Made by a program: the position numbers and the translations under genes. A model generated the notes under the pieces. That model searched no databases. It was not told the origin of the DNA and worked only from the letters and a program-made list of their open reading frames with translations. From Natronosalvus caseinilyticus (GTDB lineage Archaea; Halobacteriota; Halobacteria; Halobacteriales; Natrialbaceae), in contig NZ_CP071596.1 of the NCBI RefSeq assembly GCF_017357105.1, positions 3,100,001-3,164,000 on the forward strand: a DNA stretch of 64,000 nucleotides. The letters are read 5' to 3'. The number at the start of each line of letters is the position of its first letter. The first letter of the stretch is position 1. Below are positions 36,611 through 43,762 of the stretch, piece after piece.

Positions 36611-38230
36611 ATGACCGATTCCGTTCGATCAGACTTTCCGATCCTCGAGCGCGACGTCGATGGGCAGGACCTCGTCTACCTCGACAACGCGGCGACGACC
36701 CAGACGCCGCGGCAGGTCTACGACGTGTTCGAGGAGTACTTCTCGACGTACAACGCGAACGTTCACCGCGGGATTCACACGCTGAGCCACGAGGCCTCGA
36801 TCGCCTACGAACAGGCCCACGACCGACTCGCGGCGTTCGTCGGCGCCAGCGGCGGGCGCGAGGAACTCATCTTCACGAAGGGGGCGACCGAGAGCATCAA
36901 CCTCGTCGCCTACGGCCTGGGGCTCAACGAACTGGGCCCTGGCGACCAGGTCGTGACGACGGAGATGGAACACCACGCCTCGGTCGTGACCTGGCAGCAG
37001 GTGGCGAAGAAGACCGGTGCCGACATCGACTTCATTCGCGTGACCGACGACGGCCACCTCGACCTCGAGCACGCCAGCGAACTCATCGGTCCGGACACCG
37101 CGGTCGTTTCGGTCGTCCACGTCTCGAACGTCCTCGGGACGATCAACCCGGTCGCCGAGCTGGCCGAGATGGCCCACGAGCACGACGCCTATGTGGTCGT
37201 CGACGGCGCCCAGTCCGCCCCGAACCGACCTATCGACGTCGAGGCGATGGGCGCGGACTTCTTCGCCTTCTCGGGCCACAAGATGGCCGGACCGACGGGC
37301 ATCGGTGCCCTCTACGGCAAGCGGGAGATCCTCGAGGAGATGGAGCCGTTCCTCTTCGGCGGCGAGATGATCCGTCACGTCACCTTCGAGCACTCGACCT
37401 GGAACGAACTCCCCTGGAAGTTCGAGGCCGGCACGCCGCCCATCGCGGAGGGAATCGCGCTCGCGGCCGCGGCGGACTACCTCGAGGAGATCGGGATGGA
37501 CGCGATTGCGGCCCACGAGAACGAGCTCGCCCAGTACGCGCTCGAGCGACTCGAGGCGCGCGACGACGTGACGACCTACGGGCCGCCTGCGGGCGAGGAG
37601 CGATCCGGCCTGGTTGCGTTCAACGTCGACGGCGTCCATGGCCACGACCTCTCGTCGCTGCTGAACGACCGCGGGATCGCCGTCCGGGCGGGCGATCACT
37701 GTACCCAACCGCTGCACGATGCCCTCGACATTCCCGGCTCCGTCCGCGCGTCGTTCTACGTCTACAACACGCGCGAAGAGGTCGACGCCTTGCTCGACGC
37801 AATCGACGACGCCCGCGCGAAGCTGGACGCATACCTGCGGTCCGATCGATATCACGACGTCCTCTACGACCATCACTGCGACCCCCGGAACGCGGGCGGC
37901 CTCAAGAACCCCGACCTCGTCAAGTCCTCCGAGGAGACCTCCTGTGGCGACGACGGGGAGTTCCACGTCGACGTCGCCCCCGACGGCACCATCGAGGCTA
38001 TCGCCTTCGAGAGCGAGAGTTGCGCCGTCAGCAGCGCCGTCGCGAGTATCCTCTCGACGGAACTCGAGGGGATGACCGTCGAGGAGGTCGCCGCCATCGA
38101 CGGCCTGATCGCGGACCGTCTCGAGGGCCAGTACCCGCAACTTCGCCGGGACTGCGTCGAAGGGCCCGAGGACGTCATCCGGATCGCGGCCCAGGACTAC
38201 CTCGACGCGCAGGTCGCTGGAGCCGACTGA
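36611..38230 (+). CDS. sufS: Fused cysteine desulfurase SufS and scaffold SufU
   Basis: A 539-residue single frame joining two Fe-S assembly enzymes. Residues 1-410 are SufS: DNAATTQTPRQVYD at the start, PLP Lys224 in FSGHKMAGPTG, and catalytic Cys364 in RAGDHCTQPLHDAL. After a short linker (AKLDAYLRSDRYHDVLYDHH), residues about 420-539 are SufU-like: Cys445 in TSCGDDGEF, Cys471 in ESCAVSSAVASI and Cys515 in RDCVEG, the three expected zinc/sulfur-accepting cysteines. In most haloarchaea the two are separate neighbouring genes. No stop, frameshift or repeat is seen at the junction, so it is a true fusion, with sulfur transfer presumably within one chain or homodimer. Confidence 0.93.
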   Translation: MTDSVRSDFPILERDVDGQDLVYLDNAATTQTPRQVYDVFEEYFSTYNANVHRGIHTLSHEASIAYEQAHDRLAAFVGASGGREELIFTKGATESINLVAYGLGLNELGPGDQVVTTEMEHHASVVTWQQVAKKTGADIDFIRVTDDGHLDLEHASELIGPDTAVVSVVHVSNVLGTINPVAELAEMAHEHDAYVVVDGAQSAPNRPIDVEAMGADFFAFSGHKMAGPTGIGALYGKREILEEMEPFLFGGEMIRHVTFEHSTWNELPWKFEAGTPPIAEGIALAAAADYLEEIGMDAIAAHENELAQYALERLEARDDVTTYGPPAGEERSGLVAFNVDGVHGHDLSSLLNDRGIAVRAGDHCTQPLHDALDIPGSVRASFYVYNTREEVDALLDAIDDARAKLDAYLRSDRYHDVLYDHHCDPRNAGGLKNPDLVKSSEETSCGDDGEFHVDVAPDGTIEAIAFESESCAVSSAVASILSTELEGMTVEEVAAIDGLIADRLEGQYPQLRRDCVEGPEDVIRIAAQDYLDAQVAGAD

Positions 38231-38808: not shown

Positions 38809-38922
38809 TCGAACTCGAGTCCGTAGTTCTTACCGATTCTGTCGCGTTCGCCTCCGAAGCAACGGTGAAATCGTCGTTTGACCTTCCAGAGAGCACTTAT
38901 CGTCTCCGGGAAGAGTACCGGT

Positions 38923-40095
38923 ATGGACCCCTCCAGACGAACGATTCTTCGCTCGAGCGCACTCGGTGTCGGACTCGCCGTCGGCGGCTGTCTCGACGCC
39001 AGTCCGACCGGCTCGAGCCCCGACGACGACGGTGAGGACGACCCGAACGACGGTGACGGAGCGAACGGCACTGACAGTACCAACGGTACCGACGGTACCG
39101 ACGACTCGAATACCAACGACGGCACTGGTTCGAGTCCCGAAATTACTACCGTCGAAACCATCGACCTCGAGCCCCGAACCGACGAACCGCCCTGGGCCTC
39201 GGACGGGATCGGCACAGTCGCGCTGATCACCGACGCCGACGTCCTCGAGCGGCTGGACGCCGTCCCGACGAACCGAACCGCCGAAACCGTGGACCCCTTC
39301 CTCGAGGAAACGGACTTCGAGACGGAGGTGCTCGTGCTCGTCGAATCCGGCGGTCCGACGATGTGCCACGACAGCATCGAGGTCGACGACGTGACCTTCG
39401 ATGCCCAGGAGAGCGCGATCACGGCGACGGCGACGGTCGTCGACTCGAGCGAGGGCGGCTGTGGAGAGGCGCTGGCCTACCCGGCGTCGCTCACGCGCGT
39501 CTCGTTCGACGACCGGATGCGACCCCACGACGCCGTCGTCACGCTCACCGACGGCTGGGGAGAAACCGAAACCGTCGAAGCGGCCCACGAGCGCGTCATC
39601 GATCCGTCGGGACTCGAGGGCGGCGTCGAGCCGGACGGCGATCCGGCGACGATTCCGGAACCGCTCGAGTGCTCGGACGACGACTTCAAGCGCCTCTCAT
39701 CCGCCGAGTCGGTTCACTGGGGCGACGCCGACGCGTTCGCCATGCGCGTCGACCCCCTCGAGGTCGCTCACGGCGAGTCGGTGTCGATCACGATGGCTAA
39801 CCTCACCAGCGTCAAACAGGGCACCGGCAACGACCGGAAGTTCTCGCTCGAGGTCCGGACCGAAGCGGGCTGGCAGGAGGTTCGCGGCTACCGGGCCGAA
39901 CACGGTATCGGCTACACGGACGAGGGAATTATTCATCCGCCCGGCGAGGGATTCGACTGGGAGATCGAGCTATCCGAAGCAGCCGTCGAGGACCTGTACT
40001 CGGGGCTCGAGGTCTGCCCGGGGCTCCCGGCCGGCCGGTACCGATTCGTCTACTGGCCGCTCGACCTGGCGGTGGCGTTCGACGTGCTCGAGTGA
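38923..40095 (+). CDS. Haloarchaeal lipoprotein of unknown function
   Basis: A 390-residue lipoprotein. The signal peptide DPSRRTILRSSALGVGLAVGGC has a Tat-like RR and a lipobox Cys near residue 23, then an acidic/Thr-rich linker (about 28-65). The body has beta-rich segments with WASDGIGTVALITDADVLERL and a C-terminal part (SVSITMANLTSVKQGTGNDRKFSLEV) that looks immunoglobulin-like. No enzymatic motif is found. It may sit near the cupredoxin and sulfite oxidase genes that follow. Confidence 0.75.
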   Translation: MDPSRRTILRSSALGVGLAVGGCLDASPTGSSPDDDGEDDPNDGDGANGTDSTNGTDGTDDSNTNDGTGSSPEITTVETIDLEPRTDEPPWASDGIGTVALITDADVLERLDAVPTNRTAETVDPFLEETDFETEVLVLVESGGPTMCHDSIEVDDVTFDAQESAITATATVVDSSEGGCGEALAYPASLTRVSFDDRMRPHDAVVTLTDGWGETETVEAAHERVIDPSGLEGGVEPDGDPATIPEPLECSDDDFKRLSSAESVHWGDADAFAMRVDPLEVAHGESVSITMANLTSVKQGTGNDRKFSLEVRTEAGWQEVRGYRAEHGIGYTDEGIIHPPGEGFDWEIELSEAAVEDLYSGLEVCPGLPAGRYRFVYWPLDLAVAFDVLE

Positions 40096-40210: not shown

Positions 40211-41551
40211 ATGACCGACGCGAGCACTCGACGGCGCTTTCTGCGCTGCCTCGGAGCGGGCAGCGCCCTGACCGCAGCTCTGGCCGGCGAGGTTGGTGGG
40301 GCGGTCGGCAATCGATTCCAGGACGAGGGAGACGGTGATGGAACGGAGGACGAAGGTGAAGGCGAAGACGAGGGAGACGGCGACGAACGGGACGGATCAG
40401 ATGGCGAAGAGGGCGACTCGAGCGACGACCCCGCCGTCACGCAGGTCGTCGCCGGTCCCGACGGCGCCTGGCGGTTCGAACCCGAGGACGTCGAAATCGG
40501 TCTCGGAGAGGCGATCGAGTGGACGTTCGCCAGCGCGGGCCACAACGCCACCTCCCTTCCCGGGGCGTCGGACAGGAATCGAAACCCGCCGAACGCGGAG
40601 CCGTTCGCCTCTTACGAGGGCGACGCCCACTTCTCGGTCGTTCCGGAGGGAGAGACGTACCGCCACGTATTCACCACCCCCGGTGAGTACGCGTACGTTT
40701 GCGTCCCCCACGAGAACACGATGGTCGGTACCGTGCAGGTCGACGCCTGCGCGGACGAAACCGTCGTCGTCGCCCACGACGGCGACCACCGATTCGAACT
40801 CGACGCGCTCGAGATCGGGCTCGGGGACACGGTGGAGTGGCAGTTCGAGGAAGAGGGGCACAACGTGACCGCCCACCCGGAGGCGTCCGAGAACGCATCG
40901 GTGCCGGAGGACGCCGAGCCGTTCGCCTCCTACGGCCTCTCGAGTGGCGAGGGCGAGACCGAGGGAACCGAGGAGGAAGAAACGGACGAAATCGACCACG
41001 AGGTCACCCGCGAGGCCGACGAAACGTACGCCTACGCGTTCGAGACCCCCGGGACGTACGAGTACGTCTGTTCGATCCACGACGAAGAGATGGTCGGCAC
41101 GGTCGAGGTCCTGGACGAACCGGACGCGACCGTCACCGTCGCACCGGACGGCGAGCTCGCGTTCGAACCGGAATCGGTCTCGCTCGAGGTCGGCGACGTC
41201 GTCCGCTGGACGTTCGAGGAGGAGGGGCACAACGTAACCGCTCACCCGGAGGCGTCCGACAACGCGTCGGTACCGGAGGGGGTCGAACCGTTCGCCTCCT
41301 ACGACCTTTCGGCCGGTGAGGACGGTAACGGAGAGGGAACACACGAAACCGACGACGGAGACGAAGAGGGCGACACCGACGAAATCGACCACGAGGCCAC
41401 CCGCGAGAGCGGAGAGACGTTCGACCATCGCTTCGTCGCCGTCGGGCAGTACGAGTACGTCTGCGCGATCCACGACGAGGAGATGGTCGGGACTATCGAG
41501 GTCGAACCGTGTAGCGACGACGACGAGTCGAGCGAAGCGGCCGACGACTAG
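40211..41551 (+). CDS. Triple-domain cupredoxin (halocyanin-like)
   Basis: A 446-residue exported copper protein. The N-terminus STRRRFLRCLGAGSALTAAL is a Tat signal, then an acidic linker (about 35-75). Three cupredoxin domains follow (about 78-180, 180-300, 300-430), each with a copper-site pattern of His, Cys, His and Met: for example GHNAT/YVCVPHENTM, GHNVTAHP/YVCSIHDEEM and GHNVTAHP/YVCAIHDEEM. Domains two and three are near-duplicates of each other, so recent tandem duplication is likely. Multiple type-1 sites in one chain would carry several electrons. The gene precedes the sulfite oxidase by 168 bp. Confidence 0.88.
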   Translation: MTDASTRRRFLRCLGAGSALTAALAGEVGGAVGNRFQDEGDGDGTEDEGEGEDEGDGDERDGSDGEEGDSSDDPAVTQVVAGPDGAWRFEPEDVEIGLGEAIEWTFASAGHNATSLPGASDRNRNPPNAEPFASYEGDAHFSVVPEGETYRHVFTTPGEYAYVCVPHENTMVGTVQVDACADETVVVAHDGDHRFELDALEIGLGDTVEWQFEEEGHNVTAHPEASENASVPEDAEPFASYGLSSGEGETEGTEEEETDEIDHEVTREADETYAYAFETPGTYEYVCSIHDEEMVGTVEVLDEPDATVTVAPDGELAFEPESVSLEVGDVVRWTFEEEGHNVTAHPEASDNASVPEGVEPFASYDLSAGEDGNGEGTHETDDGDEEGDTDEIDHEATRESGETFDHRFVAVGQYEYVCAIHDEEMVGTIEVEPCSDDDESSEAADD

Positions 41552-41719
41552 CCGTTTCCTCGACCTCCAGCAACGGTTCGTTCCGAACTCGAGAGGTCGG
41601 AAGCCGGTCAATCCGCACGATTCTCTATTGGAGTGATCGGTAGACCGTTTATCGAGCGGGATTCGATACGGCAGGATTATGTTAGCTATATCGCCATCAG
41701 TGGTGTGCGTGGTTTTGTC

Positions 41720-43138
41720 ATGCAAAGACAGTCAACGAGCGGCGGGGACGAGCGGTCGGGCGAGACCGGGCGACGACGACGGCAGTTGCTCGACCGGCGA
41801 AAGTTCATGATGGCATCGGGCGCGCTCGCCGGATTGAGCGTAACCGGGTCGGCAGTAGCGAGACAGGAGCAAGAGGAATCGGAGTCCGACGAGGGCGAGA
41901 GCGAGGGCGACGGCGGACCCGAACGGGGGACGCCCGAGTACCTGGAGGAGCACTATCCAGGACTGCGCATCTACTCACCGGATCCGGAGAACGCGGAGGC
42001 GGCGGCCCGCGAGACCTACACGAGTTACCTCACGCCGAAGGAGGAACACTACATCAGGAACCACTACCTGTCGCCCCAGCTCGACGCCGAGGAGTGGGAG
42101 ATCGAACTCCGGCTGGGCGAGGAGACCGTCTCGCTGTCGATGGACGACCTCGAGCGGGAGTACTCGACCGAGTCGGTGGCCCACACGATGCAGTGTTCGG
42201 GCAACGGTCGATCTTACTTCGACCCCGAGGTGGCGGGCAACCCCTGGACCTTCGGCGCGGTCGGCAACACCATCTGGACCGGTGCGCCGGTGAGCGAGAT
42301 CCTCGAGGCCCACGACGCCGACACGAGCGACGGGAAGTGGCTGATGGCCGCCGGGGGTGATCACCCGGAGGGCGAGCGAATCTTCGCGCGCTCCATCCCG
42401 ATGCAGAAGGTGATGGACGACTGTCTGCTCGCCTACGAGATGGACGGAGAGCCGCTGAGCGCCGAACACGGCCACCCCGTTCGGCTCCTCGTCCCAGGCT
42501 GGATGGGGAATAACAACGTCAAGTGGCTCCGCGAACTCGAGGTCATGGACATGATGATGATCGGCGAGGAGTGGGAACAGTACCTCCACTGGCAACAGAA
42601 CTCCTACCGGATCATCCCCGAGGGCGAGGAGGCCGAGCACAACGAGACGATCGACGAGTTCGACACCTGGGCGCAGATGGAAGCGGCCGCCAACGGCGAA
42701 CTCGACCACCTGCCGTACATCTACGACCAGGTCGTCAAGTCGATCATCGGCTATCCCGGCGAGGAATCGACGGTGTCGCCGCGCGCCCAGGACGGCAGCG
42801 TCGAGGTGCTCGGGGTCGCCTGGGCTGGCGACGACCGCGTCGAGTCCGTGGAAGTTTCCACCGACGGTGGCGAGAGCTGGGAGGAAGCGGAGTTCTTCGG
42901 CCCCGACCTCGGCCCTGGCGGCTGGCGACAGTTCCGTTACCTCTGGGAAGCCGAACCGGGCGAGCACGTCCTGTACTCGCGAGCGACGGACGAGAACGGA
43001 TACACGCAGTTCGGCCCGATCTCAGATCCCGAGGCGGGACTCGAGGCCATTTCCGACGAGCAATTCCCCTGGAACCAGGACGGGTACGCCTGTAACGCCT
43101 ACGAACCGCACGGGGTGACGGTGACCGTCGAGGAGTGA
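41720..43138 (+). CDS. Tat-exported sulfite-oxidase-type molybdoenzyme
   Basis: A 472-residue periplasmic-side protein. The N-terminus QRQSTSGGDERSG then DRRKFMMASGALAGLS gives a Tat signal. The molybdopterin domain has the Mo-ligating Cys159 in HTMQCSGNGRSYF and NPWTFGAVGNTIWTGAPV; the C-terminal Mo-co dimerisation domain is present from about residue 375 (VEVLGVAWAGDDRVESVEVSTDGG). Such enzymes oxidise sulfite to sulfate and hand electrons to a cytochrome or, here plausibly, the cupredoxin encoded just upstream. The ATG chosen sits directly before the Tat region; earlier ATG codons give a poorer start. Confidence 0.9.
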   Translation: MQRQSTSGGDERSGETGRRRRQLLDRRKFMMASGALAGLSVTGSAVARQEQEESESDEGESEGDGGPERGTPEYLEEHYPGLRIYSPDPENAEAAARETYTSYLTPKEEHYIRNHYLSPQLDAEEWEIELRLGEETVSLSMDDLEREYSTESVAHTMQCSGNGRSYFDPEVAGNPWTFGAVGNTIWTGAPVSEILEAHDADTSDGKWLMAAGGDHPEGERIFARSIPMQKVMDDCLLAYEMDGEPLSAEHGHPVRLLVPGWMGNNNVKWLRELEVMDMMMIGEEWEQYLHWQQNSYRIIPEGEEAEHNETIDEFDTWAQMEAAANGELDHLPYIYDQVVKSIIGYPGEESTVSPRAQDGSVEVLGVAWAGDDRVESVEVSTDGGESWEEAEFFGPDLGPGGWRQFRYLWEAEPGEHVLYSRATDENGYTQFGPISDPEAGLEAISDEQFPWNQDGYACNAYEPHGVTVTVEE

Positions 43139-43159: not shown

Positions 43160-43762
43160 TTAATCCGCCTCTTCTTCGGCTGCCTCGTTCGCCTTCGGCT
43201 CGTCAGCACCCGCCTCGTCCGCATCGACCTCCTTCAATCTCGAGAGCGGACGCTCGTCTGCGTCGGTCTCGTCCGCCGTCCGGCTCGAATCGTCGCTCAC
43301 CGCCAGCACGTGGAGGTCGCACTCGATCGTCGTCCCGGCGAGTTCGTGATTGAAGTCCACGACGGCGCGTCCGTCGTCCTCGACCGCCTGAACCCAGCCG
43401 GTCCGGCCGTTGTCGTCCCGGACCAGCGTTCCGGGTTCGAGGTCGGACGGATCAGATGCCAGCGTTCCGGTGGGCACCTCGAGCACGCGCTCCTCGCTGT
43501 AGGCCCCGAACGCCTCTTCGGGTTCGAGTTCGACGGTTCGTCGCTCGCCGACGGCCATCTCCCGGAGTGCGCGGTCGATGCCCGGGAGAATCTTCCCCTC
43601 GCCGACCCTGACCTCGAGTGGCTTGTAGTCGCGGTGGTCATGATAGATGCCCTCCTCGAGGGCGACGTCGACGTCGGTCGTGTCGAAGACCTCGCCTGAG
43701 GCGTCCCCCTCGGCGATGCGACCGGTGAAGTGAATCGCGGCGACGCGTCCGGGGGCTACCAT
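43160..43762 (-). CDS. FKBP-type peptidyl-prolyl isomerase (SlyD-like)
   Basis: A 200-residue isomerase. Residues about 1-60 carry the FKBP half domain VAAIHFTGRIAEGDASGEVFDTT and the KILPGIDRALREMAVGERRTVELEPEEAFG motif; an insert-in-flap domain follows (about 75-130), then FNHELAGTTIECDLHVLAV. The last 50 residues are a charged, low-complexity tail. Such chaperones assist protein folding and sometimes metal delivery. It is convergent and nearly abutting the sulfite oxidase gene. Confidence 0.92.
   Translation of the reverse strand: MVAPGRVAAIHFTGRIAEGDASGEVFDTTDVDVALEEGIYHDHRDYKPLEVRVGEGKILPGIDRALREMAVGERRTVELEPEEAFGAYSEERVLEVPTGTLASDPSDLEPGTLVRDDNGRTGWVQAVEDDGRAVVDFNHELAGTTIECDLHVLAVSDDSSRTADETDADERPLSRLKEVDADEAGADEPKANEAAEEEAD

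Follow-up and report, generated by a model that had tools for sequence, protein, structure and literature searches.

In enzymes of the sulfite oxidase family, molybdenum is the site of sulfite oxidation, and the electrons leave singly for a mobile carrier. In Sinorhizobium meliloti, sorT shares an operon with genes for two possible acceptors, a pseudoazurin (azu2) and a cytochrome c (PMC3511301), and SorU, the cytochrome c, has been demonstrated to accept electrons from SorT (PMC4760952). In Thermus thermophilus only one domain of the di-heme c550 takes electrons from the sulfite enzyme and both pass them on; the authors conclude that c550 is a shuttle, not a wire, and suggest two-electron storage (PMC3561395). 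The haloarchaeal one-electron carrier is described as halocyanin instead of cytochrome c (PMC8305020). Here, a stretch of 64,000 nucleotides from Natronosalvus caseinilyticus (contig NZ_CP071596.1, positions 3,100,001 to 3,164,000; hereafter the window) was analyzed, in which a three-domain cupredoxin, a molybdoenzyme of the sulfite oxidase family and an FKBP-type prolyl isomerase are encoded in direct succession. These genes probably constitute a haloarchaeal sulfite-oxidation module with a dedicated cupredoxin shuttle and an FKBP helper.

As in the SorT-SorU-Azu2 system, a heme-free enzyme of the sulfite oxidase family is encoded beside a blue-copper protein, and SorT, a periplasmic sulfite dehydrogenase, is its best match among solved structures. 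There, a cytochrome (SorU) is the acceptor, whereas here the upstream gene encodes a cupredoxin, which usually bears a lipobox and in the window has three domains, and an FKBP gene is part of the locus. The Thermus sulfite:acceptor oxidoreductase likewise delivers the electrons of sulfite oxidation to a multi-domain redox partner; c550 carries heme in two domains, the window carrier copper sites in three. With halocyanins and plastocyanin-type cupredoxins the carrier shares PF00127 and the H/C/H/M ligands, and it differs from them in having three domains, a C-x2-H-x3-M loop and no lipobox. The enzyme-cupredoxin pairing largely varies on one already known, and interest in the locus is raised by the linked FKBP and by a natural series of partner architectures. 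Among the literature matches listed, a set that leaves most subscription journals outside, no title or abstract opening names the pair or its FKBP link.

A three-domain cupredoxin is encoded upstream of a sulfite-oxidase-type enzyme

The cupredoxin gene (40211 to 41551, plus strand) encodes 446 amino acids. A twin-arginine type signal (RRRFL) and an acidic spacer are followed by three copper domains joined by linkers of a few residues; the protein has no lipobox, and a C-terminal membrane segment was not seen on reading the translation. The first domain, D1 (40430 to 40750), carries the ligands H111, C164, H167 and M171. D2 (40751 to 41113), which has an acidic insertion, carries H217, C287, H290 and M294, and D3 (41114 to 41509) carries H340, C418, H421 and M425, all on the plus strand. 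Pfam found three PF00127 stretches (whole-protein E 1.9e-37), and in a genome scan the domains D1, D2 and D3 singly reached 51.4, 42.9 and 43.7 bits at a cut-off of 21.2. Each domain has a complete type-1 H/C/H/M set, twelve ligands in total. The first-pass annotation of this DNA had reported three such copper-site sets, and both this claim and its coordinates were right. The ligands also survived alignment, a check that the annotation had proposed: none was lost, and the five triple-domain orthologues (52-86% identical to the window protein) share all twelve without exception. They are kept in 15/15 domains although the two genera that hold triple proteins are only 52-54% identical, which speaks for working copper sites.

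The protein scored above the NCBIfam plastocyanin cut-off (100.5 versus 87.85 bits) and under that of the halocyanin domain TIGR03102 (77.7 versus 93.8 bits). Its copper loop is C-x2-H-x3-M; the plastocyanin loop, CxPHxxxxM, is one residue longer. A multicopper oxidase was considered and rejected. Such enzymes are marked by HxH motifs at a trinuclear type 2/3 site; no such Pfam or NCBIfam model matched the protein, and no HxH pattern was seen on reading the translation.

The molybdoenzyme gene (41720 to 43138, plus strand) encodes a heme-free protein of 472 amino acids with a signal of the twin-arginine translocation (Tat) type and without lipobox. Its start was set at the ATG at 41720, 168 bases past the cupredoxin stop; the open reading frame itself starts at 41633, upstream of the conserved part. 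The protein matches PF00174 (Oxidored_molyb; E 6.3e-48, 163 versus 24 bits) and PF03404 (Mo-co_dimer; 41 versus 22.7 bits). By alignment, the molybdenum-ligand cysteine is C159 (codon 42194 to 42196), within a QCSGNGR motif. The earlier statement that the cupredoxin lies directly upstream of a sulfite-oxidase-type molybdoenzyme is confirmed. R113, C159 and Y296 are invariant in 21 orthologues and align with the chains of SorT and the chicken enzyme; we take them to have the roles of catalytic Arg, molybdenum-ligand Cys and Tyr of sulfite oxidase. The window enzyme also shares the HWQxxxY segment with the chicken enzyme. The closest solved structures are 4pw3 and 4pw9 (titled putative sulfite oxidase, and presumably SorT of S. 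meliloti), followed by vertebrate sulfite oxidase. Because the RR motif is invariant in the 21 aligned orthologues, the enzyme is regarded as a probable Tat substrate; the NCBIfam Tat model TIGR01409 gave 11.7 bits at a cut-off of 16.7. The cupredoxin is not among the matches listed for this model.

The cupredoxin accompanies exported enzymes in haloarchaea

The searched set held 29 genera and 125 genomes of the family, including the window genome (4.24 Mb). Within the family, an enzyme was counted as exported when it matched the window enzyme with at least 560 bits; the next matches reached at most 430 bits. Orthologues that match through the signal peptide were found in 21/125 genomes, and in 20 of these a same-strand cupredoxin lies directly upstream, with three domains in five cases and a single domain in 15; the exception is genome G095. 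In the window's own genus the pair is present in three of eight genomes.

For a wider census, 47 loci from a scan of named genomes and 40 regions fetched from an order-level search (392 genomes) were added to the family genomes. Merging identical cores left 83 distinct enzymes out of 117 enzyme places. The census was built from best matches to the window enzyme and is for this reason not a random sample. Export status was set by hand for L069 (exported) and for L168, L172, L060, L061, L063 and L111 (non-exported). In this de-duplicated haloarchaeal set, a same-strand cupredoxin lies directly upstream of 57/60 exported enzymes and of 0/22 non-exported relatives (Fisher p 5e-17, uncorrected for kinship). 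L172, in which the core motif was not found, was omitted from this count and restored in the FKBP count below, which therefore has 23 non-exported loci. At L094 only ~0.5 kb of upstream sequence was available, so the absence of the cupredoxin is weakly tested there. Conservation in other haloarchaea, which the first-pass annotation had proposed to examine, is thus borne out, and co-occurrence is wide. The pair is not accidental, and a functional pairing is supported. No cytochrome gene was found among the recurrent neighbours of the enzyme loci.

Nine of the lower-scoring family matches, examined as loci (L056 to L064), have neither signal peptide nor cupredoxin nor FKBP. One of them, L056, lies in the window genome itself (G000:C1:2174615-2175730) and with its relatives L057 to L064 forms a non-exported sulfite-oxidase-like paralogue. 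In this group VCHRN replaces the catalytic-Arg segment YIRNHY, and ECAGNGR replaces QCSGNGR.

An FKBP gene is linked to the exported enzyme

A third gene, overlooked in the first-pass annotation, lies convergent with the molybdoenzyme gene (43160 to 43762, minus strand). It encodes an FKBP-type prolyl isomerase similar to archaeal FKBP26 and SlyD. The FKBP domain PF00254 was matched with 45.8 versus 21.1 bits. The inserted chaperone (IF) domain PF22199 stayed under its cut-off (17.1 versus 27 bits), yet the alignment with 3prb spans residues 18-165. Structure matches were 3prb (E 3.2e-24), which we take to be an archaeal FKBP26-type structure, and SlyD structures.

A relative of this gene was found in 39/44 loci of a neighbour scan, window included. 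In the census, an FKBP lies directly downstream in 51/60 exported loci, 31 convergent and 20 on the same strand, and the same-strand gaps measure 0-11 bases in 19/20. Near non-exported enzymes an FKBP was found in 0/23 loci, and in 22 of these the available sequence extended 1 kb or more past the enzyme gene on its downstream side. Members of the window FKBP's clade were defined by a score of at least 120 bits (next matches at most 88.2). Within the family such a clade FKBP occurs in 21/21 genomes with and 7/104 genomes without the exported enzyme (Fisher p 3e-18, uncorrected for kinship). In the window's genus another FKBP (36-39% identity) is present in 8/8 genomes, and the module FKBP only in the three that have the enzyme. 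A branch with a Shimodaira-Hasegawa-like approximate likelihood ratio test (SH-aLRT) value of 90 sets the clade apart from ten haloarchaeal FKBPs encoded elsewhere (eight in the window's genus, one in G088 and one in G007).

The gene linkage of redox enzyme maturation proteins (REMPs), a tie to one Tat-type cofactor enzyme, is seen for this FKBP as well. Like the REMPs NarJ, TorD, DmsD and NapD, it would be a dedicated cytoplasmic helper encoded beside a Tat-exported molybdoenzyme; it differs from them in that the helper belongs to the FKBP family and the client to the sulfite oxidase family. Escherichia coli SlyD binds twin-arginine signal peptides (PMC11198818). For the sulfite oxidase family, a 2023 review states that no enzyme-specific chaperone has been found (PMC10609526), and a 2013 paper reports none in the yedYZ region (PMC4228395). 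Taken together, the linkage, the signal-peptide binding of SlyD and the lack of a known family chaperone make the FKBP a candidate for a dedicated chaperone of the sulfite oxidase family. It resembles SlyD and archaeal FKBP26 by its structure matches and differs from them in that its clade is tied to one exported enzyme and that signal-peptide binding is putative. We tentatively propose that it could recognize the twin-arginine signal of the apo-enzyme and release it once the enzyme has folded with its molybdenum cofactor, acting as a dedicated maturation and export chaperone. If so, the sulfite oxidase family would gain its first enzyme-specific chaperone, and an FKBP would have taken on a role that NarJ/TorD-type proteins fill in the dimethyl sulfoxide reductase family. 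The module offers a concrete, genetically testable chaperone candidate in culturable archaea.

It is equally conceivable that the FKBP is a passenger co-transferred with the pair, or that it serves many Tat substrates. The seven enzyme-less family genomes that carry a clade member all belong to one genus, g20, and in five of the seven (L229, L237, L241, L242, L246) the gene follows not a sulfite enzyme but a protein that on reading carries a Tat-type signal. The exported enzyme occurs without a clade FKBP in four genomes (G311, G419, G385, G377), and in three others the FKBP is located elsewhere in the genome (G348, G413, G121). The FKBP is thus dispensable in some genomes, and these exceptions speak for a passenger or a general helper. 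Other observations speak against this. On a quick tree of the enzymes the orientation of the FKBP gene switched at least two times and adjacency was kept. Eight genera include both enzyme-bearing and enzyme-less genomes; in seven of them FKBP and enzyme match exactly, g20 being the exception. Loci that lack the cupredoxin also keep the FKBP, which lies downstream of the enzyme in L044 and upstream within ~2 kb in L089 and L107. The placement in g20 hints at a possible wider role for Tat clients. The g20 neighbour that was tested with Pfam, that of L237, has a polysaccharide-deacetylase domain (PF01522).

Extra carrier domains occur in pairs without lipoboxes

The cupredoxin partners form a series of one, two or three copper domains, or a fusion with a phosphatidylethanolamine-binding-protein (PEBP) domain, a natural series in which the value of extra redox sites could be measured. 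Anchor status was assigned by motif, and lipobox calls were corrected by eye for the cupredoxins of L053, L084, L086, L092, L106 and L113 and the enzymes of L164 and L166. Single-copper-domain partners with a lipobox make up 42/57 pairs. In 41 pairs both partners have a Tat-type lipobox and the carrier is single-domain; in the Halomicrococcus pair L071 the enzyme has no lipobox and the partner is lipobox-bearing and single-domain. Extra carrier domains are found in 15/15 pairs without any lipobox and in 0/41 pairs with both.

Five of these 15 pairs, from the window's genus and Halobiforma, have three copper domains, and the triple cupredoxin is a derived variant of these five genomes. Eight Halorussus-group partners contain a second copper-motif region that on reading resembles another cupredoxin subfamily; the H, C, H, M set was seen on reading in 8/8. 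Pfam found two PF00127 stretches in L069 and one each in L072 and L099. In two Halorussus species (L075:4887-5864 and L105:4883-5869) the cupredoxin is fused to a PEBP domain (PF01161). These two were set to 'extra domain' by hand and confirmed by Pfam, and a second motif match in L110 was discounted since it lies upstream of the signal peptide. PEBP domains are not known to hold copper.

The extra-domain pairs fall into two separate clades on the enzyme tree, so the association of anchor and domain number amounts to two contrasts and is beyond statistical testing (median sign test p 0.5). A general rule that extra domains go with a missing anchor was tried on all cupredoxins of three genomes and refuted by L206, a cupredoxin outside the module with two domains plus a lipobox, which shows that a carrier can gain domains and keep its anchor. 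The same three genomes contain 13 other cupredoxins without lipobox on reading, of which seven end in a membrane segment and six are large.

The extra domains might be mainly non-electronic, replacing the anchor through size retention by the S-layer or docking to a partner, which we consider unlikely. Such a role would fit the strict split between pairs without and with lipoboxes, the large or membrane-ended forms of the 13 lipobox-less cupredoxins and the foreign subfamily of the second Halorussus region, and the PEBP fusions fit retention by size better than storage. However, only two clades are independent, L071 lost the lipobox of its enzyme and gained no domain, and L206 is lipidated in spite of its two domains. 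The copper ligands, moreover, are kept in all domains of the triple proteins and on reading in all eight N-terminal regions of the Halorussus group.

The triple cupredoxin may stem from a single triplication

D2 and D3 of the window protein are 66% identical, D1 and D2 50%, and D1 and D3 49%. The first-pass annotation had called the second and third domains nearly the same. The middle (45/61 positions) and the copper loop with the end (11/15) bear this out; the N flank (14/32), the strand that precedes the copper loop (last strand; 7/14) and the overall identity do not. The patchwork of like and unlike segments suggests exchange between domains.

On a tree of the domains (106 columns, few forks resolved), the window D1 and the Halobiforma D3 form type A (support 83), a part of the tree that also contains most single-domain partners. 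D2 and D3 of the window and D1 and D2 of Halobiforma form type B (starred at 99), and the type-B copies pair up within each genus. The order of types is A-B-B in the window's genus versus B-B-A in Halobiforma. Position by position, the two genera are alike in linkers 1-2 and 2-3 and in the tail, in the N flank of D2 (21/32) and in the last strand of D1 and of D3 (11/14 each). The N flanks of D1 and D3 and the last strand of D2 fit another Halobiforma position better, and a rule by which every domain flank matches its positional Halobiforma counterpart was dropped for this reason. Tentatively, we favour a single triplication in a shared ancestor, followed by exchange among the domains; two separate triplications, one in the window's genus and one in Halobiforma, could also have produced these proteins.

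Proposed function of the module

The enzyme would fold in the cytoplasm with its cofactor and then be exported by Tat, with the FKBP acting in the cytoplasm on the precursor, by shielding the signal peptide or by assisting folding before export. Outside the cell, the enzyme is proposed to turn sulfite into sulfate and to hand the two electrons singly to its dedicated cupredoxin, which would pass them to the respiratory chain at the level of halocyanin or the terminal oxidase. In the window's genus and Halobiforma, where both lipoboxes are gone, the three abutting copper domains could form a free shuttle able to hold both electrons of a catalytic cycle; a soluble protein with three copper sites is compatible with such storage. 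We infer the sulfite substrate and the electron flow from enzyme to cupredoxin from the catalytic motif, the copper ligands and the adjacency and co-occurrence of the genes. The locus points to sulfite oxidation with a copper carrier in haloarchaea.

Several observations weigh against this reading. Besides the exceptions to the FKBP linkage, the two-contrast limit of the anchor association and the lipidated L206, these are the three exported enzymes without an adjacent cupredoxin (L044, L089, L107) and the outcome of AlphaFold2 on the five triple-cupredoxin orthologues, where the mean pLDDT (predicted local distance difference test) was only 37.7 and no usable copper-copper distances were obtained. 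Furthermore, the enzyme reached 251.1 bits with the SorT model NF052247 (cut-off 570) and stayed well under the NCBIfam cut-offs of SorA and SoxC. Its substrate is therefore not assigned by a curated model, and we name it SorT-like, not SorT.

The enzyme could accordingly have another activity of the sulfite oxidase family, such as reducing an oxidized substrate with the cupredoxin as donor, since it lies under all curated equivalog cut-offs and a family name does not prove a substrate. This is improbable in view of its closest solved relatives, SorT and vertebrate sulfite oxidase, of the aligned Arg/Cys/Tyr set and the chicken HWQxxxY segment, and of the far lower score with the MsrP model (20.7 bits). 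The first-pass annotation had suggested that the tandem copper sites might wire several electrons from sulfite into the respiratory chain, and the presence of three intact, closely linked sites in a single chain, or two domain types serving as entry and exit, could be read in this way; a fixed wire is nevertheless very unlikely, as 42/57 partners have one copper domain, the order A-B-B versus B-B-A (type B starred at 99, type A only 83) would be odd for a directional path, the PEBP fusions of two Halorussus species make a pure wire role unlikely, and the experimentally dissected two-domain Thermus analogue is reported to be a shuttle and not a wire (PMC3561395). What stands of the earlier reading is the functional pairing in a sulfite-oxidase context.

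Neighbouring genes

Directly upstream of the cupredoxin gene, an open reading frame at 38878-40095 (plus strand) encodes a protein with a Tat-type lipobox that matched no family over its cut-off. When 44 loci were compared, relatives of this frame were found only in the two nearest congeners. At 36611-38230 (plus strand), a protein of 539 amino acids is encoded in which a SufS-type cysteine desulfurase is fused to a NifU_N/IscU-like scaffold (PF00266 and PF01592).

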